Assembly: GCA_001543015.1 (NCBI GenBank)
Contig: LFLC01000062.1
Span: forward strand, 1 to 49,027
Reading direction: 5' to 3'
Source: Nitrosopumilus sp. LS_AOA
GTDB lineage: Archaea > Thermoproteota > Nitrososphaeria > Nitrososphaerales > Nitrosopumilaceae
Length of the DNA stretch: 49,027 nucleotides
A model generated the notes under the pieces. It saw only the letters and a program-made list of their open reading frames with translations, was not told where the DNA came from and did not search any database. Both the position numbers and the translations under genes were made by a program. Shown one piece after another: positions 26,613-49,027 of this stretch. Position 1 is the first letter of the stretch, and each line of letters starts with the position of its first letter.

Positions 26613-29600
26613 TTAATTTTTAATTTTCACTCTTTCACGCCTTGTATATCCTGAATAGTTTGAACCTCTCTTGGCACGAATAGAAACATACACATAACTA
26701 TCTTCATTTTTGTAATATCTCTTACTGGTTATAGTTGTACTACCACCTGTGATTGTACCACTTGATTTTGTATCTTCTCTAGAGTTTCGTGGTTGTACCA
26801 ATAATTCATAAGATTCTGGTGTATTACCTAATGTCTGTTTTGTTATAGTAGCTGTAACTCTTGCATATTCTCCATCTCTAGAACTTCTACCTTGACCAGA
26901 CAATGCGTATGACACTGTTGGGATTTTTAATGTATCATCAATTGTTGGGTTTGGATCTGGATTAGAATTATTACCAAAATTTTGTAGACTACCATTTCTC
27001 GGACCTGTAAAATCCTCTCCAGTGTGATTAAATGATTGGATTATGAATCTCCAATATCCACTTGTAGGTGGAATTAAAGGTATTTCAAATTCCATTCTGT
27101 CTTCTCGACTATCTATATCTCCGATGTAACCATGTCTAGTTATACCGGTGGCGATATCGACATCTTTTCTGACATTACCTGGAAAAGTAGTTCCATCTGA
27201 ATTATATTCTGTTCTAATAATTTTAACCCATTCACCTCGATAATCATCTGTAAATCTTAATTCAATGGAAAGTTTTTTGAGAGTACTATTATAGATTATA
27301 TCCAGTGTATTCCCTGAACGAATGCCATAAGGTCTAAGGTATTGGCCAGTAGTAATATTACTCGTACTACTCCATGCAGATGATGTTATTTGATAAATAG
27401 ATTTGATACGAAAATATAATATGGTGTTTATGTTTTGATTTGAAAAAATTTCAGAGTGGCTGTATGGCTGTGAGATGTCTGATGATGTAGGTCTATCTAT
27501 TAATTCTGGTTGAAGACCAACAGTAAACGATGGAGCGATCGCCTTTTGTATTTCAACCTGTCGTATGTATGCGGGAAAAGTTATTGCTGCAGTAATTGTA
27601 GTTCCACTTACTGAAAGTACAAAAGTTGGTATAGGTAAAGATAATGTAGTAATTGGTGATAATGTGATTGTTTTAATTATTGTATTTGTAACATCAAAAA
27701 TTAACAGTTTGTATGTGTAACTTGTTTGTGGGTCTATCTTTTTATTATCATCAAAACTCGTTGCTGTGATTTTTGATTGTGTAAGATATGTTTCTGTACC
27801 ATTAGGATTTAATCTAATTGGAATGAATTTTGGAGAATTTACACCAGTTGGTATATTCCATGTTAGGTTGTTATTCAAATAACCTTCACTAACTGCGAAA
27901 TTTATTTGACTTTCATTAACAACTGGTGGGTCTGTATCTGTATATGACCAAATCCAAGAAGAGCTTCCATGTATATCAATAGATTTAATCCAAATGTAAT
28001 ATATTGTGTTTGCATCTAAATTAGTAATAGTTTTTGATGTTCCTATAAGATCTGATAGTGTTACAACATCAGAACCAGATGGGGAACCATCAGGATTTCT
28101 TGTAGAAAATTTTGAATATTTTATTTCATATTTTAAAGTTGGATTGTCTTTTATGGCAGGTATTTTCCATGTTGCATTTATGGTACTATCAGAAGTTCCT
28201 GTCACATAGTAATCAATAGGGACACTTGGTGGGCCAACTGTTATCTCACCTTCGTTTTTTTTTACAATCCAAGTATTTCCACCATCTGTAGTAGATATTG
28301 AAAAGCTAATAATATCTCCCTGAGATACACCTGATAAATCCTGTATCTGTCCTACAATGGATAATGTAGGAATTGTTGATGGTTGTATTGTAAAATCAAA
28401 TATTAGTCCAAGTGTGTTTGTGGTTAATCCTGTAAATGTTATTTGTGTGTTACCTGTAAGAATTGCAGATAACATTGTTTTGGAGTGAGTTGCAAAATTA
28501 ATTTGTGTGGCGCCTGAAATTTCACCTATACTTTGGTGTAATGTAATTTGTTCTTGTGCAAATGCACTAGGTGTAGCACCACCAAACAATATAGTTTCAG
28601 CTGCATCAAGAAAAGAAGATGCGCCAGAAGATAATGAATTGTATATTTTTGCTGCAAATGCAGTAGCTGAGTTTCCAACATAGTTTATGATGTTTGAAAT
28701 GTTTGTAGAAATACCAGATATGGTACTGTTGATAGTTGCAATTGTTGAGGAGATAGCACTAGATACTTTAGCTGCAAACGCACTAGCTGAGTTTCCAACA
28801 TAGTTTATGATGTTTGAAATGTTTGTAGAAATACCAGATATGGTACTGTTGATAGTTGCAATTGTTGAGGAGATAGCACTAGATACTTTAGCTGCAAACG
28901 CACTAGCTGAGTTTCCAACATAATCTATAATATTTGAAATATTACCAGATATTCCAGTTATGGTGTTATTTATTGTGGCAATTGTTGAGGAGATAGCACT
29001 AGATACTTTAGCTGCAAACGCACTAGCTGATGTTCCAACATAATCAATAATATTTGAAATGTTTGTAGAAATACCAGATATGGTACTATTTACAATAGCA
29101 ATTGCTGCATTAATTGCATTTTGTGCAGCTGTTCCTACATTAGTTGTGAATTCTGTAACATTAGAACCTACATATCCTTTGATTGCATCTATGTTACCTT
29201 CTATGGCAGTAATTGTTGTATTGAGTGCAGTGATTGCAGTGTTTGCAGCTGATGCCGCAGCTGTATTTACTGCAGTTTGTAATGTTGCAACAGTTCCAAA
29301 CGGATCAGATTTAAAATTATCAATAAATGACTGAGCTGCCTCTATAGCTGACTGCAATGATGATAAAGTATTTGCATCCAATATTCCCTCTGCATTAATT
29401 ACAATCCAACTAGTGCCATTATCAAGAGTAGTCAAACTAAGGACTTCGATGGACCCTGAAGAATTATTAATACTTGGAAGATTACTTACAGAGACAGGCC
29501 ATGTAATGACTGGTTTAGAATCATTTGGTCCTTGCGTAAAGGTTATTCTAAGTTCAATATCATATCCATGTCTTGGTGGATTACCACTAAAAGAAAATGT

Positions 29601-29867
29601 TGTATCTCCATTAATTGATACATTATAGTATTTTGTGTTAAGGGATAGATCTATTGGTATTTGACCTGAAGTTTGAGTAATATTTACAACATTTTGTTTA
29701 TTTGCCTGAATTATACCGTCATCACTTTGTTGTATTCTGTGTTTAAAAATATCAGATCCAATAGGAGTAATTGAATCAATCTTTGATGCAAACTGATACT
29801 GTAATGATGAGACTGTATTTCGTACTATTCTATCTCGTTCTATTTTTGATTCAGGTAATCCATACAT
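26613..29867 (-). CDS. Tail fibre-like protein with coiled repeats and fibronectin-III domains
   Basis: This is a 1084-residue protein without a signal peptide. An N-terminal region (1-175, including PIDLSLNTKYYNVSINGDTT, a phage-fibre-like beta segment) is followed by an Ala/Ile/Ser-rich shaft (about 175-420) built of 40-residue repeats. Next come a second copy of the beta segment (about 445-540), then fibronectin-III-like domains (about 545-650 and later; ATWKIPAIKDNPTLKYEIKY). The C-terminal beta domains may form the tip. It is the last large gene of the tail cluster and starts two bases after the 911-residue tail gene. It is most likely a host-binding tail fibre. Confidence 0.75.
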   Translation of the reverse strand: MYGLPESKIERDRIVRNTVSSLQYQFASKIDSITPIGSDIFKHRIQQSDDGIIQANKQNVVNITQTSGQIPIDLSLNTKYYNVSINGDTTFSFSGNPPRHGYDIELRITFTQGPNDSKPVITWPVSVSNLPSINNSSGSIEVLSLTTLDNGTSWIVINAEGILDANTLSSLQSAIEAAQSFIDNFKSDPFGTVATLQTAVNTAAASAANTAITALNTTITAIEGNIDAIKGYVGSNVTEFTTNVGTAAQNAINAAIAIVNSTISGISTNISNIIDYVGTSASAFAAKVSSAISSTIATINNTITGISGNISNIIDYVGNSASAFAAKVSSAISSTIATINSTISGISTNISNIINYVGNSASAFAAKVSSAISSTIATINSTISGISTNISNIINYVGNSATAFAAKIYNSLSSGASSFLDAAETILFGGATPSAFAQEQITLHQSIGEISGATQINFATHSKTMLSAILTGNTQITFTGLTTNTLGLIFDFTIQPSTIPTLSIVGQIQDLSGVSQGDIISFSISTTDGGNTWIVKKNEGEITVGPPSVPIDYYVTGTSDSTINATWKIPAIKDNPTLKYEIKYSKFSTRNPDGSPSGSDVVTLSDLIGTSKTITNLDANTIYYIWIKSIDIHGSSSWIWSYTDTDPPVVNESQINFAVSEGYLNNNLTWNIPTGVNSPKFIPIRLNPNGTETYLTQSKITATSFDDNKKIDPQTSYTYKLLIFDVTNTIIKTITLSPITTLSLPIPTFVLSVSGTTITAAITFPAYIRQVEIQKAIAPSFTVGLQPELIDRPTSSDISQPYSHSEIFSNQNINTILYFRIKSIYQITSSAWSSTSNITTGQYLRPYGIRSGNTLDIIYNSTLKKLSIELRFTDDYRGEWVKIIRTEYNSDGTTFPGNVRKDVDIATGITRHGYIGDIDSREDRMEFEIPLIPPTSGYWRFIIQSFNHTGEDFTGPRNGSLQNFGNNSNPDPNPTIDDTLKIPTVSYALSGQGRSSRDGEYARVTATITKQTLGNTPESYELLVQPRNSREDTKSSGTITGGSTTITSKRYYKNEDSYVYVSIRAKRGSNYSGYTRRERVKIKN
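28636..29160 (-). repeat. 120-bp tandem repeats in the fibre shaft
   Basis: 28681-28800 and 28801-28920 are identical over all 120 bases. 28921-29040 is a diverged copy, with partial copies on both sides. Each unit encodes 40 residues (ISSTIATINSTISGIS, then NISNIINYVGNSASAFAAKV). Confidence 0.9.
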
Positions 29868-32606: not shown

Positions 32607-33116
32607 TTATGTGGTAACTCCTAATCTTTTAGGATCACCTGAAAACTCTAAGACTATAGTTGCATAGACAAAGTTTTGTAATGTGAGATTTTGGTGTATT
32701 GTGAAATTTACCACCTTGTATCCTGCATCATTATTTGGAACCAAGTCAAATTCAGGTCTATAATTATTACGAACCCCTATACTTCCCTCATCGTATATAC
32801 CATCAACTGTCTGGTCTTCTGCAAGCCAATCTCTAAACTTTGCAATAGCTTGTGCAGTTCCTGATTCCTCATCAAATACTACCTCAAAAGTATACAGGTC
32901 TCCTGAAAATCCAGTATCTGGCTTATCTGCTCGGTTAGCATGTGGTAAGGGGTTTTCTGGTTTGTGACGACCAAGTGCAGGTACAAAGGATACAACACCA
33001 CTCCTATTATCAGGGGTAATGGCATTTCCTTCAAATTCTACCTTATCAGTTACAGTACTCTCTGTCTGATTAGCTGCTGTTAGTCTATAAAATACAACTA
33101 CTCCATTAACTGCCAT
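32607..33116 (-). CDS. Tail protein, probable tube- or tip-associated
   Basis: This is a 169-residue, beta-rich, acidic protein (GVVVFYRLTAANQTESTV at the start, YATIVLEFSGDPKRLG at the end) with no named domain. The even strand pattern and the last-strand TIVLEFSG resemble tail-tube-fold proteins (e.g. distal tail or second tube protein). It ends one base before the 911-residue gene start and follows the basic helical gene. Assignment rests on position and composition. Confidence 0.55.
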   Translation of the reverse strand: MAVNGVVVFYRLTAANQTESTVTDKVEFEGNAITPDNRSGVVSFVPALGRHKPENPLPHANRADKPDTGFSGDLYTFEVVFDEESGTAQAIAKFRDWLAEDQTVDGIYDEGSIGVRNNYRPEFDLVPNNDAGYKVVNFTIHQNLTLQNFVYATIVLEFSGDPKRLGVTT

Positions 33117-33128
33117 TATTTATCACCG

Positions 33129-33731
33129 TCATTTCTCATCCTGATTCACCCTGTTGATTCTAATTTCATCTCGGTCTAAAAGGGAATTATATACATCTGT
33201 TCCATCTATAGGTTTGAATCCTGAAACTTGAGCTACTACAAAACTATCTAACCCAAGATCACGACGTTGTTGTGAATCAAGGGATAAAAATCCAGTAATT
33301 ACTTCTTCTACTATAACTCTGAAATCTCTATTCAATGGTGCACCCTTTACTGCCATTTTTCGTATTACCTGTTTTACAACCTCAGGAGATGAGGCAATTG
33401 TAGTGATTAGAGTAATAATTGCAGCTGCATGAGGACCTGCACCTTTTAGAATATTTAGAAACTCACCTCCTATGAATCCCTTTGGATTCTTTAGTAATGA
33501 GGTTCCTTTAATTAATGGAGTTAGATGTTTTGAGATTAATTTCTCCATTGCATCTTGATTACTTTTTATCTTGTTAACTTTGGCCTGCAATTTTTTAAAC
33601 TCATTTCCAGGACGTGCAGGAGCTCCTGTCTCTCCAATCAAACCAGTATCTTTTCTAATCTTTTGACCTACAGTTTTTTGTATTCTCTTGTTTTGTTGTA
33701 ACTCTAGTTTTTTAAGATAACTTTTAGGCAA
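33129..33731 (-). CDS. Basic helical tail-module protein, possible mini tape measure
   Basis: From the TTG at 33731 this is a 200-residue protein. An N-terminal basic coiled-coil-prone part contains KKLQAKVNKIKSNQDAMEKL. A hydrophobic helix follows at about 105-125 (AAAIITLITTIASSPEV), then a compact C-terminal region. Position after the tube/completion genes and before tail-tip genes is where the tape-measure gene lies, and no other candidate is present. The frame stays open to 33842 without any ATG, GTG or TTG; an ATA there would overlap the previous stop (ATAG), so the true protein may be 37 residues longer. Confidence 0.6.
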   Translation of the reverse strand: MPKSYLKKLELQQNKRIQKTVGQKIRKDTGLIGETGAPARPGNEFKKLQAKVNKIKSNQDAMEKLISKHLTPLIKGTSLLKNPKGFIGGEFLNILKGAGPHAAAIITLITTIASSPEVVKQVIRKMAVKGAPLNRDFRVIVEEVITGFLSLDSQQRRDLGLDSFVVAQVSGFKPIDGTDVYNSLLDRDEIRINRVNQDEK

Positions 33732-33838
33732 TGTGTCAGAAGTGTTTTGTATTCCTAACGCGCCACTTGAGGATTGTTGTTTTCTAGATTGTGTCTTTTT
33801 ATCTTCTACAAATATTATTGGTAGTTTAATTTTATCTG

Positions 33839-34294
33839 CTATCGTACCTTCACCTTTACCTTATATTTTGTCTCCAGAGTTCTTGAGAATTTCTTTGTCT
33901 CAGATTTGATTTTATTTTCTAGTTTCTTTTTGCCTATTTGTAATCCGTTCTCCATAGCTTCTGTTTTTGGCAATCCTGATACATAATGACCTTTTGAGAA
34001 ATATGGCCATTTATCACCACCATGTAACGCCTTTTTATTTTTAGGTTTTATATAATGGTCCACAGTTCCATAATTAAAATAAATAGCTAATGGTTTGTCG
34101 TCTTTAATCCAATCATTTACCAATAAAAATCCATTTTCATTCTGTTCGATTTTAATGTGAGAAATAAACTCATCTGGTAAATTTGCAGCTTGTGCTGAAC
34201 GTATAGTCTCCTTGAGTATTGTGTCATTTATCCATTTTTCCATGTTACCTGACACAAACGAGTTAATCTCTTTTGTAATTTGTTCATCATTCAT
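33839..34294 (-). CDS. HK97 gp10-like head-tail/tail completion protein
   Basis: This is a 151-residue protein. The middle reads AIYFNYGTVDHYIKPKNKKAL and then FSKGHYVSG-P, the ordered pattern (GT-x-H-I-x-P-K ... F) of the HK97 gp10/tail-completion family that joins the tail to the neck. The C-terminal helix is basic. It follows the tail-tube-like gene by three bases. In other tailed viruses this protein sits at the tail terminus or connector. Confidence 0.65.
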   Translation of the reverse strand: MNDEQITKEINSFVSGNMEKWINDTILKETIRSAQAANLPDEFISHIKIEQNENGFLLVNDWIKDDKPLAIYFNYGTVDHYIKPKNKKALHGGDKWPYFSKGHYVSGLPKTEAMENGLQIGKKKLENKIKSETKKFSRTLETKYKVKVKVR

Positions 34295-34297
34295 AAA

Positions 34298-34759
34298 TCA
34301 GGATATTATAATATCATCGTCTGTTACTCTTATTCTGCATTCAATATCTACAGGATCTTGTGGATCTGCATCATTTTTAATTATTTTTTTGTATGGAAGT
34401 TTTCCTGCAATTTTTAGATTTTTTACGGTTCCATCATCAGCTGTACACTTTATGTTCCAGGGATATATTGGTAAGACGTTTTGAGTATTAACTGTATTAC
34501 GTGTTTGAAGATATGCAAATATTGCCTTGCCACCAGATACGATAAATCTAATTGATATATCAGGTGTTGCGTGTGTGTATGTTCTTTTTTTACCATGATC
34601 AATTCTAGTTTCAGGATGGTCTTTTTCAATTTCTACTTCCCTCATTTTTACTAGTTTATCTGCAGTTGCAGCTGAGTTATTTCCTACAGATGCACCAACT
34701 TGCAGCTCTACATTTTGTGCCGTAATAATGGCTGATTCTGCATCATCAATATTTGCCAT
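34298..34759 (-). CDS. Probable major tail tube protein
   Basis: This is a 153-residue beta-rich protein. After a short N-terminal segment (DDAESAIITAQNVELQVG), it has a long charged loop (REVEIEKDHPETRIDHGKKR), then repeated strands (PDISIRFIVSGGKAIFAYLQ, VKNLKIAGKLPYKKI) and it ends in VTDDDIIIS. Size and strand pattern fit the tail-tube fold. Its position between the terminator-like and gp10-like genes fits tail tube order. No direct motif proves it. Confidence 0.5.
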   Translation of the reverse strand: MANIDDAESAIITAQNVELQVGASVGNNSAATADKLVKMREVEIEKDHPETRIDHGKKRTYTHATPDISIRFIVSGGKAIFAYLQTRNTVNTQNVLPIYPWNIKCTADDGTVKNLKIAGKLPYKKIIKNDADPQDPVDIECRIRVTDDDIIIS

Positions 34760-34790
34760 ATTTTTTAAATGAAATTTTAGTTATTAGGAA

Positions 34791-35279
34791 TTATTCTGGA
34801 GACTTTGTGTAATTTACAGTTCTAATAGCAACAGTCATTGAATCTACTATCTTTCCTCTTTGTTTTGTGAATCTAGGTTGTGCATGGATTGCAAGTGACG
34901 AGCATTGTGGTTCGGTGCCATCACTTTTTCGTAACTGGGTATTTTTTCCAAGCAATGTGATGACATCACCCTTTAACTCATAGATCTGTTTTTGTGCATC
35001 AGAGGGTGTAGCTTTTGGTGCAGATACCAGAACCACCCAAAACTCAGATACTATTTTCTGAGCTGGTAATTTACCTAAAGATGTTGCAGATCCTATTGAA
35101 TCCCTTGAAACTTCAGGATTAGATGCAGGTGTAACAAAACATGCCGGAAAACTGTTTGCGTTTATCTGTTCTGGTAGTTCACCGAATCTAAACTCTGATA
35201 TTTTTTTACTAAATGATTCATCTGCCTTTAGAATATCTAAAATCCTCTGAATTATACTAGAATAGTTAGGTTCTGCCAT
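34791..35279 (-). CDS. Probable tail terminator protein
   Basis: This is a 162-residue protein with an N-terminal helix (YSSIIQRILDILKADESF), then alternating strands and helices (FPACFVTPAS, SEFWVVLVSAPK, IYELKGDVITLLGKN). The alpha/beta layout starting with a helix, with a long central loop, fits tail-terminator (gpU/gp17-like) proteins that cap the tail. It comes immediately before the tube gene, as expected. Family placement is inferred. Confidence 0.5.
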   Translation of the reverse strand: MAEPNYSSIIQRILDILKADESFSKKISEFRFGELPEQINANSFPACFVTPASNPEVSRDSIGSATSLGKLPAQKIVSEFWVVLVSAPKATPSDAQKQIYELKGDVITLLGKNTQLRKSDGTEPQCSSLAIHAQPRFTKQRGKIVDSMTVAIRTVNYTKSPE

Positions 35280-35793: not shown

Positions 35794-38700
35794 TTACCCC
35801 AACTCCATGTATCGTATATTTGATTCTACACCATTAATATCACCAAGTATTGTTAATTCTGTTACACCATCATCTCTTTCACTATCAGAGGACAATACCC
35901 GTAATTCAAATTCACCAGTAGCTCCTGGTAGTGTAGTATCAAGAATTGCTTGACCACTAAATGTTTGAAGTATTACTGGTGATAATGTTCTGTTTATCAC
36001 CTGATAGTCCCTTCCGTGTAAAATAGTATCTGCAAAAGAACGTATTGCCATCCTTGTAAACGCATAAGCTTGACCATGATCACTTTGAGTGTTTGCAATC
36101 CATTCTCCAAGAACATTATATGTAACCCAGTATCTTTTTCCCAGCGGTAAAGTGAATGCAATTACTGTTGTGTCTGGAGATATTATTCTAGTTAGTGGTG
36201 TTTTTTTGTTTGGTACTGGGGTATCTGATGGTATTATGATAGTTGTAACTTTAATCTGTGTTTTTTGTGCAATTAATTCTTCAAGTATTGTTTTTAATTT
36301 TTGAACCCCTGTTTCTGTCCATTGTTTATTTGCCGCATCATTTGGGAAGATGGGGTCTTTAACTTGTTTTAGTCGTCTATACTGTATATTAACATCTGTC
36401 TTTTCATGTACATCTGTAACTTTAATGAAATATGGGTTTTGAGTATTAGTAAATCCAGGTATTTGCATTCTACTAAGATTAGCTAAATGTAGATTGTCCT
36501 CAAAGAATATACTTTCTTTAATTTGTGCGTTTAGTATTTGGGATATTATATCTGGGTTGTTTCTACTAATCACTAGCTGTACATCATGGGTTAATGAATT
36601 GGGTAAAGAATACTCTACAAATGTTTCTGTATCACCTATTAAAATTAATTGTACAGCTGATGGTGAGAATGCAAATCCAATAGTACCATTAACGGGTAAA
36701 TCATTTGCAGACTCTTCATCAAATTGTATCATAGGTAAATCACCTGATGGTAATGTGTATTCTATGAAACGTTTTTCTGTAAGGTGTGCAGAAAATCCAT
36801 AAATGTAAACTCTGTCACTTTCAAAATCTGACACATAGAGTTTATTGTTGTACCATGTAATTCCTGCTGAGTGAGAGTTTGCACTGTTCAGTAGGAAATC
36901 TGCATCAGGTAGATGTGTACCTAGTGGTAATTGTGCTGAACCATCAATGTTGTATACAAAAACTTTGTCAGCGGAACCATCTGAAACGTATAGGTATCCA
37001 TCTTTTGCAGTAATCCCTGATGGAGAATCATTTGTACTATCTAGTGTAAATCTATTTTCATAATTAAATGAATTATCATAAATAAAAACTTGTCTTGTAT
37101 TACCAGAATTAAGAATGTAAAATTTATTATTATAATGTGTAATCTCGTATGGAAAATCATTGTCGGCATGAATTGATATAACACGCTGAAAAGTTCCAGC
37201 TAAATCATAAACGTAAACTTTTTTACTGGTATGGTCAGTAATGTATAATTCACTATTATACTCTACAATTCCTGATGGGTTGAGATTTGTGTTCTCTAGT
37301 GCGAAATCACTTTCATAATTCCCTAACACATCATAAATGAAAACTTTTCTGGTTGCATAATCACAGTTGTAAAATTTACCGTCATGATATGTCATTCCAG
37401 TTGAATCTGCATTGTTTTGATGTAATTGAAAACTACCAAATTCTGTGGTTATATTATACACGAATACTTTATCCTTAGAGGCATCTACAACATAGAATTT
37501 ATTATTGTATATGGTGATTCCTTCTGGATCAATATTTTCACTATCTAATGTAAAATTCTCAATAGATAATGGGGTTCCAGCTATACTGTATACGTGTACT
37601 TTATTATCAGAGACGCTAGTGATATAGAATTTATTATTATATACTGTAATTCCTTCTGCACTAGCTACTATTGGAAAATCTTCAGTAGGTATTTTTGTTC
37701 CATCTATATTGTATACAAAAACTTTGTCAGAAAAATCAGCAACATATAATTTATTATTATGTGATACAATTCCAAAGGGATTAGTATTGGTACTAGCTAG
37801 TTCGAAATTACTTAATGGATTACCTACTAAATCATATATGAAAATTTTGCCATTATAATCAAGAACGTATAATTTATCATTGTACCCTGTGATTCCAAAG
37901 GGATTAGTATTGGTACTAGCTAGTTCGAAATTACTTTCATAAACTCCTAATGAATTATAAATGAAGATTCTTTTAGTAGTATCATTATCTGCAATGTAGA
38001 ATTTATCATTATATGCAGTAATTCCTAACGGAATTTTATTGTTATCATCAAGTTTAAAACCAATTTCAGGAATTAATCCAAACAAATTCTTGTAATCATT
38101 TAGAAATTGGAATTTTGTTGGGAAATATTGTTTAGTACCTATATCGTGGAATAATGTAGATTCTAAAAATGTAGCTGTTATAATGTCATCTTCACCAAAA
38201 GAAATAGCAAACTTGTAAAGTTTGAAAGTATTTTTTCCTAATAGATAAACGAAATTTTCTGTATTAGAAACTTGCATATCAGAAAATTCAGTCTCACCAT
38301 CATCAGTTGTAAATATTATCTGGTTTGATGGTTGTTCTATACTACCAAAATCGTATGGTGTAGCTAAACTTAATCTTCTGAAAAATCCAACTCTAGATAT
38401 CCATACTGCATCTCCTGCATCAACTACATAAAATAGAGAATCATCATTTAGATTATACAAATCAAACTGTATAGGAATTTCAGTTCCTAAATTATACGGT
38501 GTTGGTAATGAAGACTGATAGAATTTATTATTTGCCTTTGATGATGCGTATAGATATTTACCGTCTATTGAATATTGTATTTTTGTTAGTTTTCCTAGAT
38601 TTGGATTGTGATAAGTTATTTCATCTAGAGTATTAATGTCAAATTTCTGCTTAAGGGATTCGGCTGAAAAATGCAATGGTAATTGTGGTGATACACTTAT

Positions 38701-41700
38701 CGGTGTTGCATGGTAATTTTGGTCTGTATGGTCCTTATCATTTAATATGACACCCTGTATTGGTTCAATTATTTCTATTTCATTTAGACGATAAAATTTT
38801 CCACTGTAACCCAGATATTTTTCGGTATTTTCAATAGTTGACCCTACTGCTGCAAAATCACCATTCACACCATAGTATAATACCTTTAATGGTACATTCT
38901 CAAGTGATACACCAGCTATGTAATCCCCATCACTTATTATTGGATCTGTTGGTATTGGCTCAAAAGAGAGTATGTGATTTGAATCATATGCAGCTTGAAA
39001 TATAGTATCTGTTTGAGGATATTTTACTGTAATTGCAGAGTATAATTTAGTTTCATGCTCATTTAATACATCCCAATCTTCAGACTTGTAACCATCAGTA
39101 TATAAAATATCTTTATTTGCACGTTGAACTAATCTGCCGTACCAGCTAGCCAAATCACCATTACTGTAGGATGATTCACTATCGTATGGTAATACATTGG
39201 TTCCACTACCTGATCCCCATACCATTCCACCTGTTGCAGATTCTTTAGATTTTAGGACTTGATTATCTATAGTTGGTTTTGTAATTGGGACATAAACTGG
39301 ATTGTTATCAGCATCAACATCACGTCCTAGTAGTTGGCCTTTTTCTTCTAATTTATCTATTGTACTAACTAATGATGCAGCTTGTGTGTATAGAGCATCT
39401 GCATATTCTTTAGGTACTGCATCAGTATTAGCTACTGGTGTTTTTACATTTTTTACAGTTGTTGTATTATCAGATTTTAAAACAATATCTTCTTCTTGAA
39501 TTCCTATTCCAGTTATGGATGGGAAATTACCTTGTGCGACTTTATCTGGTGTTACTGCACCTTTTCTAATTTTATCTGTACTAATTGAATAATTTTCTAT
39601 AAGATCAGAATTAAGAAAACTGTTTTTCCATTCCTCTGCAATTTCTGAAACAATATCTCCTGGAATAGCTAATGTGAAAGAATAGATAGAATTAGTTCCA
39701 TCATTTAGTACAAGTAGAATAGCACCAGTGTTCCAAAATGCCACACCATACGGATATTGAAATCCAAGTGAGAGTTTTTTATTATCATAACTAAGATTAT
39801 CAACATCATAAGATATAGAAAATGTATAAGATAAAATAAAATGATCACCTATATCTGTACTGGTAAGGTAAAAACGCAAACCACCTGGTGGGATGTAGAA
39901 ACTAACAGGTGTATCAGTTTCACTAGCAAATGAATATGATGTAACATTGGTCTTTGTAGACCTAATATCTCCTGCAGTAGCTAGTGTGAAAGAATGAATT
40001 GATCTATTATCAACTGATAAAATGAATATCTGGAAATCATTCTCAGAAAATTGTAAATCAGATATTTCACCAACATTGAAATTTTCTGATTGGTCAGGTG
40101 TTACATTAGATATATCTCGTGCATTTGATAAATCATAACTAAATACTTTATATTTTAAATCAGTATCATCAAATCCACAATGATACATCTTACTACCAGA
40201 ACTATTGAAAGTTAAACCTCGTACACTTGATATGTTGTCTGGAATTTGGTATGTGTGCTCGTACACTGCACTATCAATATCATTAACAGTTGGTACAGTA
40301 AATGAGTAAATTGCTTTGTTTCGTTGACCAATTATGAATATTCTTTGTGGGGTTACGCCGTCTGGTGTTACTGTAATTCCTGATAACTCATCATCTTGAG
40401 ATATTTTGAATATCTTTCTTTCTTTTTGGTATGCGATTATTTGTAATAGTTCTTTAGTTGCAATATCTGTGTCAGTTAAATCTTCAAGTGTTTTTTCCTC
40501 GATTTTTGCATCTAGTTTATTATTTTCTATATCTACATATTCCTTATTTGCCGCATCATTTGGAAATATTGGAGGTGCAACGTGTTTTAATCTGTTGTAT
40601 TGTGTATCCACATCAGTTTTGTTGTGGATTGCAATAATTTCTATAAAATGAGGATCTGTAAGAGATGAGATCTTGGAACTTGTTGTTCTTTTTACATCAA
40701 CTAATGGCAGATAATCTTCAAAAAATACATTTTCTTTTTGCTCGCCAAATGGAAGAACGGTGACTGTATCTGGAAATGCTCGGGACACTACTATTTGTCT
40801 TTCTGAGGATAATGATAATGGTAAATGATATCCCTTGACATCACCATTACTATACAGTACTGCAAGATTTTGTCCAGATGGTGAGAATGCAAAGTCAACT
40901 ACATCTGTTGGATTTGGTAAATCAACTGAATCAACAAAAGTAATTGTTGATAAATCTCCAGGAGTTGACAAGTCATATTCGTATAGTTTATTGTGTTGAG
41001 TTCCTAAGACAAATAGTTTAGAGTAATTATTTAGGAATTGGAATTTTTTAGGACTATTGTCTTGAGTAGTAATTAAAACTGATTGTTGTATAGTTTCAGT
41101 TATAGCACCAGTATCTGATAATGAGAAGGAGTATTTGTATAATCTACCATTGTCTTGCAATTGGTATATTATGTTATTTTGTGCTAATTCAATACTGAGA
41201 ACTCCGTTTGTATAACTAGTATTAGTTATAATATCGAGACTTGTAATATCATATGGTATAGAGAATCTAGATAGTCTCCTACCTCCAGTTGAGCTGTATG
41301 ATAAAACAAATTCTCCATCAGGAGATATAGAAAAAATTGGATATTCTTGAAATCCTTGTGGTATTACACTATCATCTATTATTTCAGGAATAATATAATT
41401 AACAGATAATTTATTTTCAAAGAAAGTATTACCTGAATTACCAGAGATGTAACCAGTACTAGAACGATAAAGTTTTGATCCGTTTGCAACATATTGAATA
41501 GTTTCAAAATTAGTATAATTTGTCCTATCAGTGTTTACACCATCCACATATTTGGTTAGTGAGAAATCAAAATCTTCAAAGTCAGCTGGATCAAATCTTA
41601 TAGGGTCTGTATGTTCAAAATTTACAATAATAGATTGGTTTTTGTCATTTAGTATTATTCCTTGTATTTTGTTTGTCAAAAGAAGTTGATTTAGATTTAT

Positions 41701-43191
41701 AAATCCTCTAGCACCACCTGTCTGACTGTTATAATTATTAAAAATGGCGTCTGTTTGTGCTTCAATTACAAGTGTATTGGTATTGGTATCAATACTTTTA
41801 ATTCGTACAATATCTCCAGATGAAAAAATTTCTACTCTTATTATAAAATCACCAACTTTAAAATTTTTCAGATCTTGATATTCTAAAACTACTGTTTTAG
41901 TTGCACTATCTCCAGATACTTTAACAAATGATGCAGTAAGAAATTCTGATGTAATGTATGAGAGTAACCGTGTTTGGTGTACATTTACAGGTACCCATTT
42001 TTCTGGGTCATACACTTCATTAGCTGGAATATCTACATTTGTAAATTGTGCAATCGTATCCAAGAATACTGCAGCTGTTCCTTTTGGGTATTCTTTTGTT
42101 ATATCATAAGGGAGTATTTCTCCACCACTAGATTCATCTCCCCATTCTATTCCAGTAGCAGTTGATTTGAGAACCTCACCTTCAGTACCCTTTGCTAATT
42201 TTACATATTCAGTTGCATTACGTGTTAGTAAATCACCTTCAGTAGTTAGCTTGTTTAGTTTGGCAAATTCTGTATCTGCATGAGCTTCTGCAAATGTTTG
42301 TGCTTCATCTGCAACCGTATCGGCATGTGCATCTGCTTCTGTTTTTTTAGTATCTACATAACTTTTGTTTGAACCATCTGCAGATTCAGTTGGAGTATCT
42401 ACATGTTGAATTTTATTTGGAACTGATTCTGTACCCATATCCAAATCTTGTGTTTGTACACCAAGTCCAGTAATTTTTTCAAAAACTTCACTAACTAAAT
42501 CAGAATTTTGTATCTTTGATGATAAATTTAGTTTGGCGTATGCTATTTTATCTGCAACTGCACTTGAAATATCTGAATTTTTAATTTTTCCTAATAAATT
42601 TAGTTTAGAATATGCGATTGCAGCTCCCGTTGCAATATGAGCATTAGATAAAAATGAATTAATCCAATTTCCTGCACTCTTTACAAGTGATTGATTTTCT
42701 GTTGGAGTACTAATAGTAACATCAGTTAACTCATTTAGAGATTCTGCACCACTAGTTTCATCTTGCCAGCTTAGGCCTGCAGTTGCACTACTGTCAGCTT
42801 TTAGAACTTTACCGTTACTTCCTACACCTAACTTTACAGTCACTGAATTACTTCGGGTGAGCAAGTCTCCTTTTGTAGATAGTGGTAAATCAGGAGTTGC
42901 AGTTACTTCCTTCCAACCACTAGCAGTAATTGGTCCCACATCAGATATTAGTACATCCACTTCACATCTGTATAATTTCTCAACACCTGATGTAGTGACA
43001 ATTACAATATCACCTACTTTGTAGGTTTTTGTGTCAGAATGTTCGTGTAGTGTACTTTGTAATCGTGAAATATCTCTTTCCTTGTGTCCTCTAGAATTTC
43101 CAGGTAATGCTACATTTGCATCAGATGCATGTACTACACTGTCATCATTTGCAATAGTAGGTGGTAGTTCTCTTGGGAGTTTGTTTACCAT
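35794..43191 (-). CDS. Giant fibre/spike-like protein (2465 aa) with duplicated modules and NHL-type propeller
   Basis: This is the largest gene in the window. The N-terminus (about 1-320) has phage-fibre motifs: GDLLTRSNSVTVKLGVGSNG, AYSKLNLLGKIKNSDI, SADGSNKSYVDTKK. Residues about 320-890 and 1285-2290 are two diverged copies of one long module (G-D/Q-LL-x-R ... LPYD ... IQGVILNDK ... FAFSPS ... IFPNDAANK). The second copy contains an inserted array of ten roughly 42-residue NHL-like blades (GIT-x-YNNKFYV-x-D ... VFVYN). The last 170 residues form a beta-rich tip. No signal peptide is seen, consistent with a virion protein. Overlaps the connector gene by one base. Likely a receptor-binding fibre or head/neck spike. 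Confidence 0.75.
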   Translation of the reverse strand: MVNKLPRELPPTIANDDSVVHASDANVALPGNSRGHKERDISRLQSTLHEHSDTKTYKVGDIVIVTTSGVEKLYRCEVDVLISDVGPITASGWKEVTATPDLPLSTKGDLLTRSNSVTVKLGVGSNGKVLKADSSATAGLSWQDETSGAESLNELTDVTISTPTENQSLVKSAGNWINSFLSNAHIATGAAIAYSKLNLLGKIKNSDISSAVADKIAYAKLNLSSKIQNSDLVSEVFEKITGLGVQTQDLDMGTESVPNKIQHVDTPTESADGSNKSYVDTKKTEADAHADTVADEAQTFAEAHADTEFAKLNKLTTEGDLLTRNATEYVKLAKGTEGEVLKSTATGIEWGDESSGGEILPYDITKEYPKGTAAVFLDTIAQFTNVDIPANEVYDPEKWVPVNVHQTRLLSYITSEFLTASFVKVSGDSATKTVVLEYQDLKNFKVGDFIIRVEIFSSGDIVRIKSIDTNTNTLVIEAQTDAIFNNYNSQTGGARGFINLNQLLLTNKIQGIILNDKNQSIIVNFEHTDPIRFDPADFEDFDFSLTKYVDGVNTDRTNYTNFETIQYVANGSKLYRSSTGYISGNSGNTFFENKLSVNYIIPEIIDDSVIPQGFQEYPIFSISPDGEFVLSYSSTGGRRLSRFSIPYDITSLDIITNTSYTNGVLSIELAQNNIIYQLQDNGRLYKYSFSLSDTGAITETIQQSVLITTQDNSPKKFQFLNNYSKLFVLGTQHNKLYEYDLSTPGDLSTITFVDSVDLPNPTDVVDFAFSPSGQNLAVLYSNGDVKGYHLPLSLSSERQIVVSRAFPDTVTVLPFGEQKENVFFEDYLPLVDVKRTTSSKISSLTDPHFIEIIAIHNKTDVDTQYNRLKHVAPPIFPNDAANKEYVDIENNKLDAKIEEKTLEDLTDTDIATKELLQIIAYQKERKIFKISQDDELSGITVTPDGVTPQRIFIIGQRNKAIYSFTVPTVNDIDSAVYEHTYQIPDNISSVRGLTFNSSGSKMYHCGFDDTDLKYKVFSYDLSNARDISNVTPDQSENFNVGEISDLQFSENDFQIFILSVDNRSIHSFTLATAGDIRSTKTNVTSYSFASETDTPVSFYIPPGGLRFYLTSTDIGDHFILSYTFSISYDVDNLSYDNKKLSLGFQYPYGVAFWNTGAILLVLNDGTNSIYSFTLAIPGDIVSEIAEEWKNSFLNSDLIENYSISTDKIRKGAVTPDKVAQGNFPSITGIGIQEEDIVLKSDNTTTVKNVKTPVANTDAVPKEYADALYTQAASLVSTIDKLEEKGQLLGRDVDADNNPVYVPITKPTIDNQVLKSKESATGGMVWGSGSGTNVLPYDSESSYSNGDLASWYGRLVQRANKDILYTDGYKSEDWDVLNEHETKLYSAITVKYPQTDTIFQAAYDSNHILSFEPIPTDPIISDGDYIAGVSLENVPLKVLYYGVNGDFAAVGSTIENTEKYLGYSGKFYRLNEIEIIEPIQGVILNDKDHTDQNYHATPISVSPQLPLHFSAESLKQKFDINTLDEITYHNPNLGKLTKIQYSIDGKYLYASSKANNKFYQSSLPTPYNLGTEIPIQFDLYNLNDDSLFYVVDAGDAVWISRVGFFRRLSLATPYDFGSIEQPSNQIIFTTDDGETEFSDMQVSNTENFVYLLGKNTFKLYKFAISFGEDDIITATFLESTLFHDIGTKQYFPTKFQFLNDYKNLFGLIPEIGFKLDDNNKIPLGITAYNDKFYIADNDTTKRIFIYNSLGVYESNFELASTNTNPFGITGYNDKLYVLDYNGKIFIYDLVGNPLSNFELASTNTNPFGIVSHNNKLYVADFSDKVFVYNIDGTKIPTEDFPIVASAEGITVYNNKFYITSVSDNKVHVYSIAGTPLSIENFTLDSENIDPEGITIYNNKFYVVDASKDKVFVYNITTEFGSFQLHQNNADSTGMTYHDGKFYNCDYATRKVFIYDVLGNYESDFALENTNLNPSGIVEYNSELYITDHTSKKVYVYDLAGTFQRVISIHADNDFPYEITHYNNKFYILNSGNTRQVFIYDNSFNYENRFTLDSTNDSPSGITAKDGYLYVSDGSADKVFVYNIDGSAQLPLGTHLPDADFLLNSANSHSAGITWYNNKLYVSDFESDRVYIYGFSAHLTEKRFIEYTLPSGDLPMIQFDEESANDLPVNGTIGFAFSPSAVQLILIGDTETFVEYSLPNSLTHDVQLVISRNNPDIISQILNAQIKESIFFEDNLHLANLSRMQIPGFTNTQNPYFIKVTDVHEKTDVNIQYRRLKQVKDPIFPNDAANKQWTETGVQKLKTILEELIAQKTQIKVTTIIIPSDTPVPNKKTPLTRIISPDTTVIAFTLPLGKRYWVTYNVLGEWIANTQSDHGQAYAFTRMAIRSFADTILHGRDYQVINRTLSPVILQTFSGQAILDTTLPGATGEFELRVLSSDSERDDGVTELTILGDINGVESNIRYMELG
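36800..38035 (-). repeat. Array of ten NHL-like propeller blades within the giant fibre gene
   Basis: Ten repeats of about 42 codons (126 bp) with the pattern GI(T/V)-x-YN-(N/D)KFY-(I/V)-x-D-x2-x-x-K-V-F-(V/I)-Y-x ... F-x-L-x-(S/N). Two neighbouring units are very similar at DNA level, including the shared SNFELASTNTNPFGI stretch. Confidence 0.8.
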
Positions 43192-43592
43192 TAGTACCTC
43201 TTTATTTGAGAGAACATTCTTCTTGTTCTATACTCAGTACCTACAGTTGCACGTTTTGTTCTAGTTGTTCTATTTGCCTTTAGAGTTTCAATTAACGTCT
43301 TTCTTTTTTCATTGTAAATTTCCTGGTATTCTTTTTTTAAATCCAATTGAAATGTATTAGTTGCCCATAACATCTTAACATATGATAATACAAGTTTATT
43401 TCCTTTGGTAAATAACTCATCTCCATCAGGTATTGGGATTTCATCTGCAAAGGGGAGTAATACATTGTCAATCTCTTGATTTGCATCAAAAACTATTCCT
43501 TGTAATACATCCTCATTATCATAATTATCACCAAGTTTGAGAAGTATCTTTGCTTCATTCAAACTAAGATAACTAGTTGTATCTTGACTCAT
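43191..43592 (-). CDS. Head-tail connector protein (gp6-like)
   Basis: This is a 133-residue, mostly helical protein beginning SYLSLNEAKILLKLGDNYDN, followed by VLQGIVFDANQEIDNVLLPF. That is the layout of gp6/gp15-like head-tail connector (adaptor) proteins, which start with a short helix-rich segment and DNA-ring-forming helices. A basic C-terminal tail follows. It directly follows the 71-residue gene (ATGA overlap) and precedes the giant fibre. Assignment rests on pattern plus position after the capsid gene. Confidence 0.6.
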   Translation of the reverse strand: MSQDTTSYLSLNEAKILLKLGDNYDNEDVLQGIVFDANQEIDNVLLPFADEIPIPDGDELFTKGNKLVLSYVKMLWATNTFQLDLKKEYQEIYNEKRKTLIETLKANRTTRTKRATVGTEYRTRRMFSQIKRY

Positions 43593-43990: not shown

Positions 43991-45148
43991 CTATGTAGAA
44001 TTTAGTAATCCTGTCATTTTAGTACCAAAGGCATCTTTCAATTTATCGTTAACGAGTGGTTGAATCCACTTTCTAATTACATGTCCAGATACTCCTTCCT
44101 TTGGATCACGGAATGCCTCTGTTACCATTGGACCATCACCAACAGTCAATGCCTTTTTATCGTAAATGTATGCGTTACCATCTCCAATATCTTCGTCTAT
44201 AAGGAATGTTATTCCAGGTAATTTACTAAATGTGAATACACCAGGTTGTTCTTGTTTTAACATTTGTTCGTAACCTCTAACAAACGTGTTGCCTGCAAAT
44301 ATTGCATAAGTAACAGAGTTCATGGCAATTGTATTTACTCTACCGTGATTCTTTGTAATTCTACGTCTTTCATCTGCCAAATCCTTTAATGGACTTCTCT
44401 TTGAGAGATTACCAGTAGTGGATATCTCATCCCATGGGCCTTTTGCAACAGATTTGAATTGATCAAGACCATCTTCTAGGATTAACTGGTTGATGTCTTG
44501 TGCGAGTACTTGAGTAACATCACTAATCATATGTTTAGTTGGAGATAGTAATGCAGTAAGTTCATCTTCATCAGGTACATCAATGACTCTTTGTAGTTTT
44601 CCGTAATTTGCCAAATCAAACTGTGTTTGGACAAATTCTGGTGCTTCTGTTTGAGCTTTTTGTCGTTTCTTGATAAGGGATTTTTTACCTCTAGTCTTCA
44701 TGTGGACTATAACATCATAATCGTATTTCAATTTAGGAACAGGAATCATGTTAGAACCCAAATGTAGGTAAACTTCTTTGTATAATTCGTTAATAATACT
44801 AGTTGATAATTCTACTCTGGTAATGTTTGCTAGTGAGGTTGCATCTAATGCACCTTGTCTGTTTAATCCAGCTTGTTTAATGTCACCTGATCTTTGTGCT
44901 CTCTCCCATCTACGGTACCCTTCATGGTCCAATGGGGTTATGATACCTTCAACATCACCGTTTATCATTGCCTGTTTGTTTACTTTGGCAATTGCATAAT
45001 ATTCAGAAGATTTTCTACCCGATACATCATAATCTGCACCTAATGCACCGTGATACCAGGTCATTGTTGCTGGGACAAATGATACTGCAGCTGCGTCTAG
45101 TCTTGTAGACATTGCTTCACTACTATTTGAAACACCGACGTAACTCAT
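43991..45148 (-). CDS. Major capsid protein, HK97-fold type
   Basis: This is a 385-residue protein. The order of parts fits an HK97-like shell protein: an N-terminal arm (1-100), DYDVIVHMKTRGKKSL (E-loop-like), LAQDINQLILEDG (spine-helix region), SVTYAIFAGNTFVRGYEQML, and the late beta strands ITFLIDEDIGDGNAYIYD followed by PMVTEAF. It lies after the decoration and scaffold-like genes and before the connectors, where the capsid gene is expected. No cleavage site can be stated with certainty. Confidence 0.8.
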   Translation of the reverse strand: MSYVGVSNSSEAMSTRLDAAAVSFVPATMTWYHGALGADYDVSGRKSSEYYAIAKVNKQAMINGDVEGIITPLDHEGYRRWERAQRSGDIKQAGLNRQGALDATSLANITRVELSTSIINELYKEVYLHLGSNMIPVPKLKYDYDVIVHMKTRGKKSLIKKRQKAQTEAPEFVQTQFDLANYGKLQRVIDVPDEDELTALLSPTKHMISDVTQVLAQDINQLILEDGLDQFKSVAKGPWDEISTTGNLSKRSPLKDLADERRRITKNHGRVNTIAMNSVTYAIFAGNTFVRGYEQMLKQEQPGVFTFSKLPGITFLIDEDIGDGNAYIYDKKALTVGDGPMVTEAFRDPKEGVSGHVIRKWIQPLVNDKLKDAFGTKMTGLLNST

Positions 45149-46294: not shown

Positions 46295-47020
46295 TTATTT
46301 GAGTTTATTACAACAAGGTATTCCACTTTTTAAGAAAACTTTTTCTTGTTTTTTTAATGGAATATTAGATAATCTTCTCAATGGAATATCTGATAATTTT
46401 TTCAATTTAGTAAATGATGCCTGTTTAGATAAATGTAAAACACATTCTCCTTGAGTTCCTGTGCACGAACCAGTAACTTGTGCCTCAAAACCATATGCAG
46501 GATCAGAAACAAAGGCCAGATGGTTTATTCTCCATGCTATATCCTCTCCCTTTGCATTTTCTTTAATCGATTCTATGGATGGTGATACGAATTTTATCTT
46601 GCCTTCACGGTGATCATTTTCTGTATCCTTGTCTGTAATTTTTACAATTACCCATCCAGTCTTGCCTTCATCAGATACCCCTACTGCAACAAAATCCCCC
46701 TTTCTGTCTGGTTCTTGCTCTGATACCATATCTTCAATAAATGGTGATGGGTGGCCTAACTTTGGAGCTTGTTCCCAGTCCTCTCTTAATATAATAGGTG
46801 CAGTCTTGCCAAAGAATCTTTTTTCTAATCCTGTTTTTAATCCTGGTTCAATTGATGATTCTACTACCTTCCAAAAATTGCGATTTAGTTTATCTGAGAT
46901 GAAATAAATTTTAAGAAAATATCCTTGTTCCCCATTATACTCTTTGGAATATTCTATTAATTGCGATTTTTCGGATTGTGTCGCCCATGGAAGGGTTTGA
47001 AAAGTAGTTAATTGGCTCAT
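46295..47020 (-). CDS. Putative prohead protease-like protein
   Basis: This is a 241-residue protein between the portal and scaffold-like genes. The central segment KIKFVSPSIESIKENAKGED, followed by INHLAFVSDPAYG, resembles the conserved strand and LALV-x-PA loop of phage capsid maturation proteases and DUF2213-type proteins. The catalytic residues cannot be assigned with certainty. The C-terminal 50 residues are basic and carry Cys residues (CTGTQGEC, and CC near the end), unusual for the family. Start overlaps the portal stop (ATGA). Confidence 0.55.
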   Translation of the reverse strand: MSQLTTFQTLPWATQSEKSQLIEYSKEYNGEQGYFLKIYFISDKLNRNFWKVVESSIEPGLKTGLEKRFFGKTAPIILREDWEQAPKLGHPSPFIEDMVSEQEPDRKGDFVAVGVSDEGKTGWVIVKITDKDTENDHREGKIKFVSPSIESIKENAKGEDIAWRINHLAFVSDPAYGFEAQVTGSCTGTQGECVLHLSKQASFTKLKKLSDIPLRRLSNIPLKKQEKVFLKSGIPCCNKLK

Positions 47021-48378
47021 TGTAACAAATGTTTTAGCTTGTCTTTAAGATCCATACTTTCAGTTTCTTGCACGATAGCCCTTAGAGTTTCAGGTGATAA
47101 GGAAGCATTTTCTTCTATTTTATTTTGCAAGTGAGATAGGTCAGCCATTCTGAGAATTTCTGCATCAGGCAAACCAGGTATTAGTTTCTTTAGTTTCATT
47201 AATCCGTCAATTGTCTCCATCCATGAATCAGCGGGTAAACTCTCAAACTCTGGAACTACCTTTACAACTTCTAATGCATCTCTATCCAAATAACTCAAAT
47301 TATTCTCATACCAGGGAATAGCAACAGTGTCTGCTATCCAACGTCTATCAGTTCTTACTGGACCTTGCATGAACATTCGTGCTTTTGCAAATAGGGTGGC
47401 CATGTTACTATCTTCTTCCCTACCAAGCATAGGTCCTGGAACTTGTCCGTGTCCTATTATCATTCTTTCACATTTATCAATTAATATTCCAAGGCCTGCA
47501 ATGTCTGTATTAAATTTGAACTGCTCAAACTCTATACCTTTCTCACCTTGTTTTGTAATTGCAGAAAATGTTCCAGGTTTTAGATTTCTTAACACAGAAT
47601 TTAGATCGTCTTCTTTTTCTTCTTCATTTAGATTTTCTTGATCAACTAGAACTATACCATACCCTGCAAACATTGACTTTGTAATTTCTACAATATCAAA
47701 TTCTGTAATCTCACGTAATGCCCTTGATTGACCTGCTATCCTTTGAAAGTCAGAGTATCCATACCACATGGTTCGAAGTCGCGGTGAATTCCTTTTGTTT
47801 ACAAAGTATATCATCTCATCAGCATATGTTAATTGTTGAAGTTTTGTCATGATGTATACAGATGATAACGTCCAATCAGATGGATGTACAAAGACTCTTC
47901 CCAATAATCTTGGGTGAACTGGTTTTAGTGCTTGTGGTGGTTTGCCACCTCCTGGTTCAAATACCAAAGCTGATCTGCCAAATACTTTGGCCTGTCTTGC
48001 AGAATCATGTACATTATCATTAAAATTCATTTTTGGTTTTTCATCTATTTCAATTAATTCATCTAATAATGGTTCATATTTTTCTAGTAATTTCTGTTGT
48101 GCCTTTTCATCTCCTACCTTTCTTGGACGTCTCAACTTGAATGTAGGCTTTATCCCTTCACCCATTGCATACATTAATCTTGTATCTAATACATCTCCTG
48201 CCAGACTATTTGACCAAATATCCTCAAAAATATCATAATCATCATCATTATACTGATTGTGAAAAAACATTGGAATAAAACTGGATTTACCATAATCAGA
48301 TAACTCGCCAGAATATCCCCTAACCCTTTTAGAACTAGCTGACTTGTGTTTGAAGGATTTCTTTTTTGCCAATACCAT
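47017..48378 (-). CDS. Portal protein
   Basis: This is a 453-residue protein. The layout is that of phage portal proteins: a basic N-terminus, FEDIWSNSLAGDVLDTRLMY near the start (wing), VFGRSALVFEPGGGKPPQAL, PVHPRLLGRVFVHPSDWT, and a C-terminal helical stem/crown (LIDKCERMIIGHGQVPGPML, a loop before the stem helix). It forms the ring through which DNA enters and leaves the capsid. It is the first recognisable virion gene from the right. A terminase would be expected just upstream but is not seen. Confidence 0.8.
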   Translation of the reverse strand: MVLAKKKSFKHKSASSKRVRGYSGELSDYGKSSFIPMFFHNQYNDDDYDIFEDIWSNSLAGDVLDTRLMYAMGEGIKPTFKLRRPRKVGDEKAQQKLLEKYEPLLDELIEIDEKPKMNFNDNVHDSARQAKVFGRSALVFEPGGGKPPQALKPVHPRLLGRVFVHPSDWTLSSVYIMTKLQQLTYADEMIYFVNKRNSPRLRTMWYGYSDFQRIAGQSRALREITEFDIVEITKSMFAGYGIVLVDQENLNEEEKEDDLNSVLRNLKPGTFSAITKQGEKGIEFEQFKFNTDIAGLGILIDKCERMIIGHGQVPGPMLGREEDSNMATLFAKARMFMQGPVRTDRRWIADTVAIPWYENNLSYLDRDALEVVKVVPEFESLPADSWMETIDGLMKLKKLIPGLPDAEILRMADLSHLQNKIEENASLSPETLRAIVQETESMDLKDKLKHLLQ

Positions 48379-48697: not shown

Positions 48698-49027
48698 CTA
48701 ACTTACACTTATGGTTGTACTAACTGGTGGTGATAATGCCGTAGGATTAGTTACGGATTCCCACACAAATGCAGTTGCTGTATAAGTTCCTGCTTCAGTT
48801 GGAATCCATGATAATGCTGGGCTGAATGATTGACCACTTAATAGTGAACCTGTAATCCATGCTAGTGAGACTGTAACACCGTTACCATCTTGAATCTGTA
48901 CCAAGTATGCAAATGCTTGATCTCTATCCTGACCACTTGCTAAGTCAGCGCTGATTTGTACCTGTTGGTCAACGGAGACAGTATCTAAACTGTTACCGAA
49001 TGCATCAACGGTTCTCAAGTTAGCAGC
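48698..49027 (-). CDS. C-terminal end of a secreted protein, Ig-like domain (runs off right edge)
   Basis: The frame is open to the window edge; the TTG at 49018 codes an internal Leu (AANLRTVDAFG) and is not a start. About 109 residues are visible, forming an Ig-like beta domain (VQISADLASGQDRDQAFAYL, then ALSWIPTEAGTYTATAFVWE) that ends in ISVS. From memory, this domain is common in secreted proteins of Nitrosopumilus, so I take it as host. Its direct neighbour position to the portal and zinc gene is why I place the provirus boundary at about 48.65 kb. Confidence 0.75.
   Translation of the reverse strand, partial: AANLRTVDAFGNSLDTVSVDQQVQISADLASGQDRDQAFAYLVQIQDGNGVTVSLAWITGSLLSGQSFSPALSWIPTEAGTYTATAFVWESVTNPTALSPPVSTTISVS

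Follow-up and report, generated by a model that had tools for sequence, protein, structure and literature searches.

Very little is known about how tailed viruses recognize ammonia-oxidizing archaea, and an integrated virus in a Nitrosopumilus genome poses the question in a concrete form: what is the role of a 2465-residue protein encoded between the head-tail connector and the tail genes, and where on the particle would it be mounted? The genome comprises 67 contigs and 1.93 Mb, and the 49,027-nucleotide stretch analyzed here (the window) is its contig C27. Cellular archaeal genes fill the left part of the window, and from about 25 kb to its right end come viral genes on the minus strand. We propose, with moderate confidence and on sequence evidence, that the protein, here called P0001, serves an integrated tailed virus of a Nitrosopumilus-like archaeon as a fibre for adhesion to the host, most likely attached near the neck. 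Gene content and relatives named Thaumarchaeota point to such a host. It offers a specific, modular candidate for an adhesion protein of such viruses.

The provirus and its virion operon

Read along the minus strand, the viral genes run from a portal protein (47017..48378) through a protease/scaffold-type gene, the major capsid protein (MCP; 43991..45148), a 71-aa gene, a head-tail connector-type gene (43191..43592), and P0001 (35794..43191) to tail completion/neck-type genes (33839..35279; individually 34791-35279, 34298-34759, and 33839-34294), a 911-aa baseplate-type ORF (29870-32605), and a second, distal fibre-like ORF of 1084 aa with FN3 (26613..29867). Family-level support for the virion genes is weak because the virus is divergent: the MCP matches PHROG_1650 (major head protein) at 0.0029, the portal match to Pfam Phage_portal (0.0098) lies below the cut-off, and the Pfam fn3 match scores 25.3 bits against a cut-off of 25. 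The gene identities are better supported by comparison with the G245 provirus, in both gene order and homology; it is one of three related proviruses (G079, G104, and G245) obtained by MCP searches among 250 genomes of the family. Specifically, MCP relatives occur in all three and portal homologs in G104 and G245; the connector gene, assigned by position, is homologous to a gene of the syntenic G245 provirus (phmmer 3.6e-8); and the tail completion/neck-type genes have G245 homologs (blastp 9e-20 to 8e-12), of which the one corresponding to 33839-34294 matches PHROG_5 (tail completion or Neck1). The MCP match, the weak portal match, and a gene block syntenic in G104 and G245 place the virus in the Caudoviricetes, with the terminase on a separate contig (C59) that is not joined to this one. 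Tailed proviruses of Thaumarchaeota are already known (PMC6563490), and this provirus is a further member of that kind; what is new is the protein architecture of P0001.

Several further features of the region were observed. The 1084-aa FN3 ORF contains near-identical helical repeats at about residues 169-420 that match several tape-measure PHROGs, and apart from these repeats no obvious tape measure gene was seen. At its right end (48698-49027) the window encodes the C-terminal 109 residues of an S-layer/surface-type protein, immediately upstream of a viral 77-aa gene and the portal gene. Contig C59, which carries viral primase and small and large terminase genes, ends within an S-layer-like ORF of at least 1905 aa (G000:C59:19946-25660); a simple join of C59 to the window, for which there is no contig overlap, would put an S-layer-like gene between the provirus terminase and portal, and C8:1-371 has a 91% identical end. 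The large terminase is apparently split into two overlapping frames here (G000:C59:14890-16633) and in G245 (contig C5, joined L087+L088 coordinates 32912-34953), and this split in two proviruses suggests separate ATPase/nuclease genes or frameshifting. Elsewhere in the window, 129-2564 encodes a secreted 811-aa protein consisting nearly entirely of thrombospondin-type-3-like calcium-binding repeats (DxDxDGxxDxxDxCP), and 19356-21659 encodes a repeat-rich surface-type protein with a 50% identical relative near the decayed G079 provirus, which places this protein beside related proviruses in two genomes.

Duplication and nested insertion within the putative fibre protein

P0001 is encoded by an uninterrupted ATG-TAA ORF that at its start shares one base with the connector stop (TAATG) and whose TAA abuts the next ATG, and it is thus an ordinary member of a packed operon. 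Its N-terminal region (residues 1-236; 42484..43191, on the minus strand, as are all P0001 features) is presumed to be the end that attaches to the virion and includes, at residues 102-183, a stretch matching PHROG_32934 (E 1e-12). This match, the operon junctions, and two recurrent fibre motifs mark P0001 as a fibre-type protein, in agreement with the original prediction; the first motif (KGDLLTR..VLK..ATG..W) occurs three times (42757..42870, 42127-42237, and 39211-39339) and the second (DAAxKxYVD type) four times (42349..42378, 40528-40557, 39394-39423, and 36310-36339). The C-terminal domain (residues 2306-2465; 35797..36276) matched nothing significantly in Pfam or the PDB. For the protein as a whole no homolog emerged, and scans of viral contigs with P0001, the MCP, the portal, two alignments, the central propeller, and the G104 MCP returned no relative. 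Three candidate CBM5/12 domains (55-97, 357-402, and 1330-1376) were rejected, their Pfam score being far below the cut-off and the first segment being unrelated to the other two.

The prediction that the 2465 residues hold two diverged copies of one module was borne out. Over 618 aligned columns, the stretch 237-899 is 35% identical to 1223-2305, and BLAST of one half against the other traces the long parallel diagonal of a duplication in two long matching blocks (315-729 with 1281-1706 at 30% identity, E 6e-26, and 735-899 with 2141-2305 at 39.5%, E 9e-29). These matches lie far above shuffled sequences: the local alignment scores 338, where shuffles average 59 (sd 7, maximum 85), and the best ungapped 40-aa window between the copies scores 139, against shuffled maxima of 35-48. 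The copies had been placed at residues 320-890 and 1285-2290, where repetition is indeed found, but it begins earlier (237-294 also aligns with 1223-1279, z 8.4), and by self-alignment copy A spans residues 237-905 (40477..42483) and copy B residues 1223-2305 (36277..39525). Among the motifs that had been used to link them, IQGxILNDK and FFEDxLxL define the duplication, whereas LLTR.. (at 108, 319, and 1285) and DAAxK (at 272, 879, 1257, and 2285) are generic. A recent duplication was rejected; with a DNA identity of 51% over aligned codons and third positions near saturation (57% identity at identical residues), the event is old.

Copy B is about 1080 residues long, against about 660 for copy A, because some 430 extra residues (1707-2140; 36772..38073) interrupt one blade of a region that is unbroken in copy A. 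Both this nested insert and the propellers themselves had been missed in the original prediction. The unbroken region in copy A (residues 565-835; 40687..41499) shows about five blades by eye and aligns to copy B with z of 14.8 and 19.1, and a third, weaker relative, again with about five blades by eye, lies centrally between the copies (residues 906-1222; 39526..40476; z 6.8 to the copy A propeller), with tblastn matches to Roseobacter and uncultured phages. We regard these outer regions as propeller-like, given their blade-like repeats and mutual similarity, and because the central region is uninterrupted, the unbroken propeller is favoured as the ancestral state. The insert consists of ten repeats of 40-51 residues with no counterpart in copy A; its break point falls between PKKFQFLNNYSKLFVL/PTKFQFLNDYKNLFGL and the next NKLYEYDLSTPGDL/EKRFIEYTLP-SGDL, which by eye appears to be the middle of one blade in the propeller-like region of about five.

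Taken alone, the insert exceeds the Pfam cut-offs for DUF5128 (6-bladed beta-propeller; 6e-11, 42.5 vs 22.9), NHL (22.9 vs 20 bits), Glu_cyclase_2 (1.2e-9), and the KIB1-4 propeller, and its tandem four-stranded blades of 40-50 aa are those of an NHL/6-bladed-type propeller. Structure prediction of the two halves, suggested at the outset as a check, was informative for one of them: in an AF2 model of residues 1540-2310, the residues of good confidence are almost exactly 1709-2133, forming four-stranded repeats between poorly modelled flanks, whereas the model of copy A was poor (pLDDT 34). Foldseek matched the insert model to propeller proteins, at low TM-scores (~0.2). Composition was rejected as a mark of foreign origin, the values for the insert (GC 0.302, GC3 0.189) being uninformative beside those of the flanks (0.32 and 0.16-0.18).

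Relatives of the insert and the probable place of the proposed fibre on the particle

When 400 class-level genomes were searched with the copy A/B alignment, the duplicated module turned up in its own contig and nowhere else, but the insert region matched one Thaumarchaeota genome, APA_bin_56 (G202; E 1e-41). A scan of an 84,980-species genome collection, whose patterns came from an alignment including G202 and whose sampling is therefore biased in a way that the 400-genome search is not, gave five APA_bin_56 loci at 1e-46 to 5e-23, followed by a drop to 3e-8 for scattered bacteria and a micrarchaeote. Across the insert, whose repeat type they share, the APA_bin_56 relatives (L046-L048) are about 31% identical, with phmmer values of 1e-65 to 1e-75. 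They differ from P0001 in being secreted cellular proteins, 1282-1309 aa long, that start with a hydrophobic, signal-like segment and carry about 13 of these repeats, followed by additional domains; one pair lies among cellular genes. Among 50,697 phage records, the insert found no match even at E 0.1, and an IMG/VR scan with the insert alignment yielded one contig, in which a 590-aa fibre-like ORF has related repeats (8e-11), so P0001 is not alone among phage proteins in having NHL-type repeats. Copying from the window's own host was rejected, as that genome holds no second copy. We conclude that the insert and archaeal surface-type propellers are related, and that it was probably acquired from, or is common to, propeller proteins of the archaeal cell surface; the transfer is unpolarized, and its direction is our inference.

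The likeness of the insert to secreted archaeal surface proteins would also fit a protein of the lysogen, serving fitness or surface conversion, that is secreted and displayed on the host and forms no part of the virion. We consider this very improbable, given that the N-terminus (MVNKLPRELPPTIANDD...) has no hydrophobic signal-like segment, that the gene start overlaps the connector gene, and that the protein carries fibre motifs and is encoded within a morphogenesis operon.

A virion fibre encoded between the connector and the tail genes had seemed oddly placed. The position stands, but it is not a one-off, as two other Nitrosopumilaceae proviruses hold a large protein there. G104 and G245 share the gene order, with the slot lying between the head connector and the tail completion genes; in G104 it is filled by a 502-aa protein matching Pfam 'Phage tail repeat like' (2.5e-11) with weak PHROG tail-fibre matches, and in G245 by a 1155-aa protein without a family match, flanked by small proteins. 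P0001 has no sequence match to either slot protein. The third provirus (G079:C22:12001-48000; L013, L014) is decayed, with transposase fragments, a truncated portal, and an empty slot. Because the sister proviruses hold unrelated large proteins at this point, the slot after the connector may be a swap site for adhesion proteins, although this role is firmly based on one sister, G104, since the 1155-aa G245 protein matches no family. The recurring slot is a place to look for a host-range determinant in related proviruses.

For P0001 itself, attachment near the neck (connector) is most likely, and the capsid surface or the tail tip less so. It is possible, if clearly less probable, that P0001 sits at the tail tip as a conventional distal tail fibre or receptor-binding protein (RBP) and is merely encoded early in the operon, with gene order uninformative on its location. 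Tail-tip RBPs such as phi11 Gp45 do have fibre motifs and propellers, and gp42 of Roseobacter phage CRP-9, which has a weakly related propeller-like stretch, sits among tail structural genes; yet a separate fibre-like ORF (FN3) follows the baseplate-type gene here, G104 has a separate 1260-aa fibre-like ORF at the same distal place, and the connector-side slot recurs in two sister proviruses. A head or neck location gains some weight from that distal FN3 ORF and from the attachment of SU10 gp12/gp13 to the adaptor gp11 (PMC9509320), gene order by itself being no guide. A capsid-surface fibre or turret seems unlikely. Such a structure would touch the S-layer first and reversibly, the role proposed for HFTV1 turrets; in its favour, the gene is next to the capsid and connector genes, and HFTV1 uses both head and tail for adsorption and has turret proteins with carbohydrate-type domains (PMC12494034). 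Against it, no capsid-binding domain was recognized in P0001, the described domains of the turret proteins gp30 and gp31 differ, and adjacency to the connector is equally compatible with the neck.

Under the neck-fibre reading, P0001, whose gene directly follows that of the head-tail connector in the virion operon, would form a trimer like other phage fibres and dock on the virion by its N-terminus. Each copy of the module consists of fibre segments and, after them, a propeller-like region, and one copy carries the predicted NHL-type propeller domain inside a blade. The propellers would be displayed along the shaft and bind a host surface glycan or protein, while the archaeal-surface-like insert, which probably serves in gripping host cells, would add a second binding head, and the slot after the connector would exchange adhesion proteins among proviruses. 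The architecture suggests that P0001 grew by duplicating a module and by taking an archaeal-type propeller into one of the copies. A broader and speculative extension, to which we give low confidence, is that tailed viruses of Nitrosopumilaceae possess, beside the connector, a dedicated site at which adhesion fibres anchored at the neck or head are swapped, and that this virus has set an archaeal cell-surface propeller into a blade of its own fibre's propeller so as to bind, or imitate, the archaeal surface.

Comparison with known fibres, turrets, and interrupted propellers

Like the virus proposed here, HFTV1 is an archaeal tailed virus, and its head structures are thought to touch the host S-layer first; its turrets differ in having deacetylase-like and galactose-binding-like domains, with no propeller mentioned (PMC12494034), and P0001 has no Pfam or PDB match to a deacetylase-like domain of that type. 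The phi11 RBP is a trimeric fibre in which a stem is followed by a five-bladed beta-propeller platform with a proposed glycan site (PMC4901313). The best DALI match of that propeller is a glutamine cyclotransferase (PMC4901313), and the P0001 insert matches Pfam Glu_cyclase_2; Gp45 differs in being much shorter, with one propeller per chain and a tail-tip location, and neither phi11 nor any other staphylococcal phage was among the tblastn matches to P0001 at 1e-5.

For position, the closer likeness is to SU10, in which the long tail fibre proteins gp12 and gp13, numbered directly after the head-tail adaptor gp11, dock on it (PMC9509320); this is a two-protein fibre of a short-tailed coliphage, with no propeller described for it in the available part of that account. 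For architecture, the tail nozzle or muzzle proteins SU10 gp17 and crassvirus gp44 are propellers with domains inserted between or within blades (PMC9509320, PMC10172136). We found no description in the open-access literature of a propeller-type guest inside a fibre propeller. P0001 resembles gp17 and gp44 in that its propeller-like region is interrupted by an inserted domain, and differs from them in that their guests are nozzle or Ig-like domains in a protein of the tail channel, whereas the guest in P0001 is a propeller-type domain within a proposed fibre.
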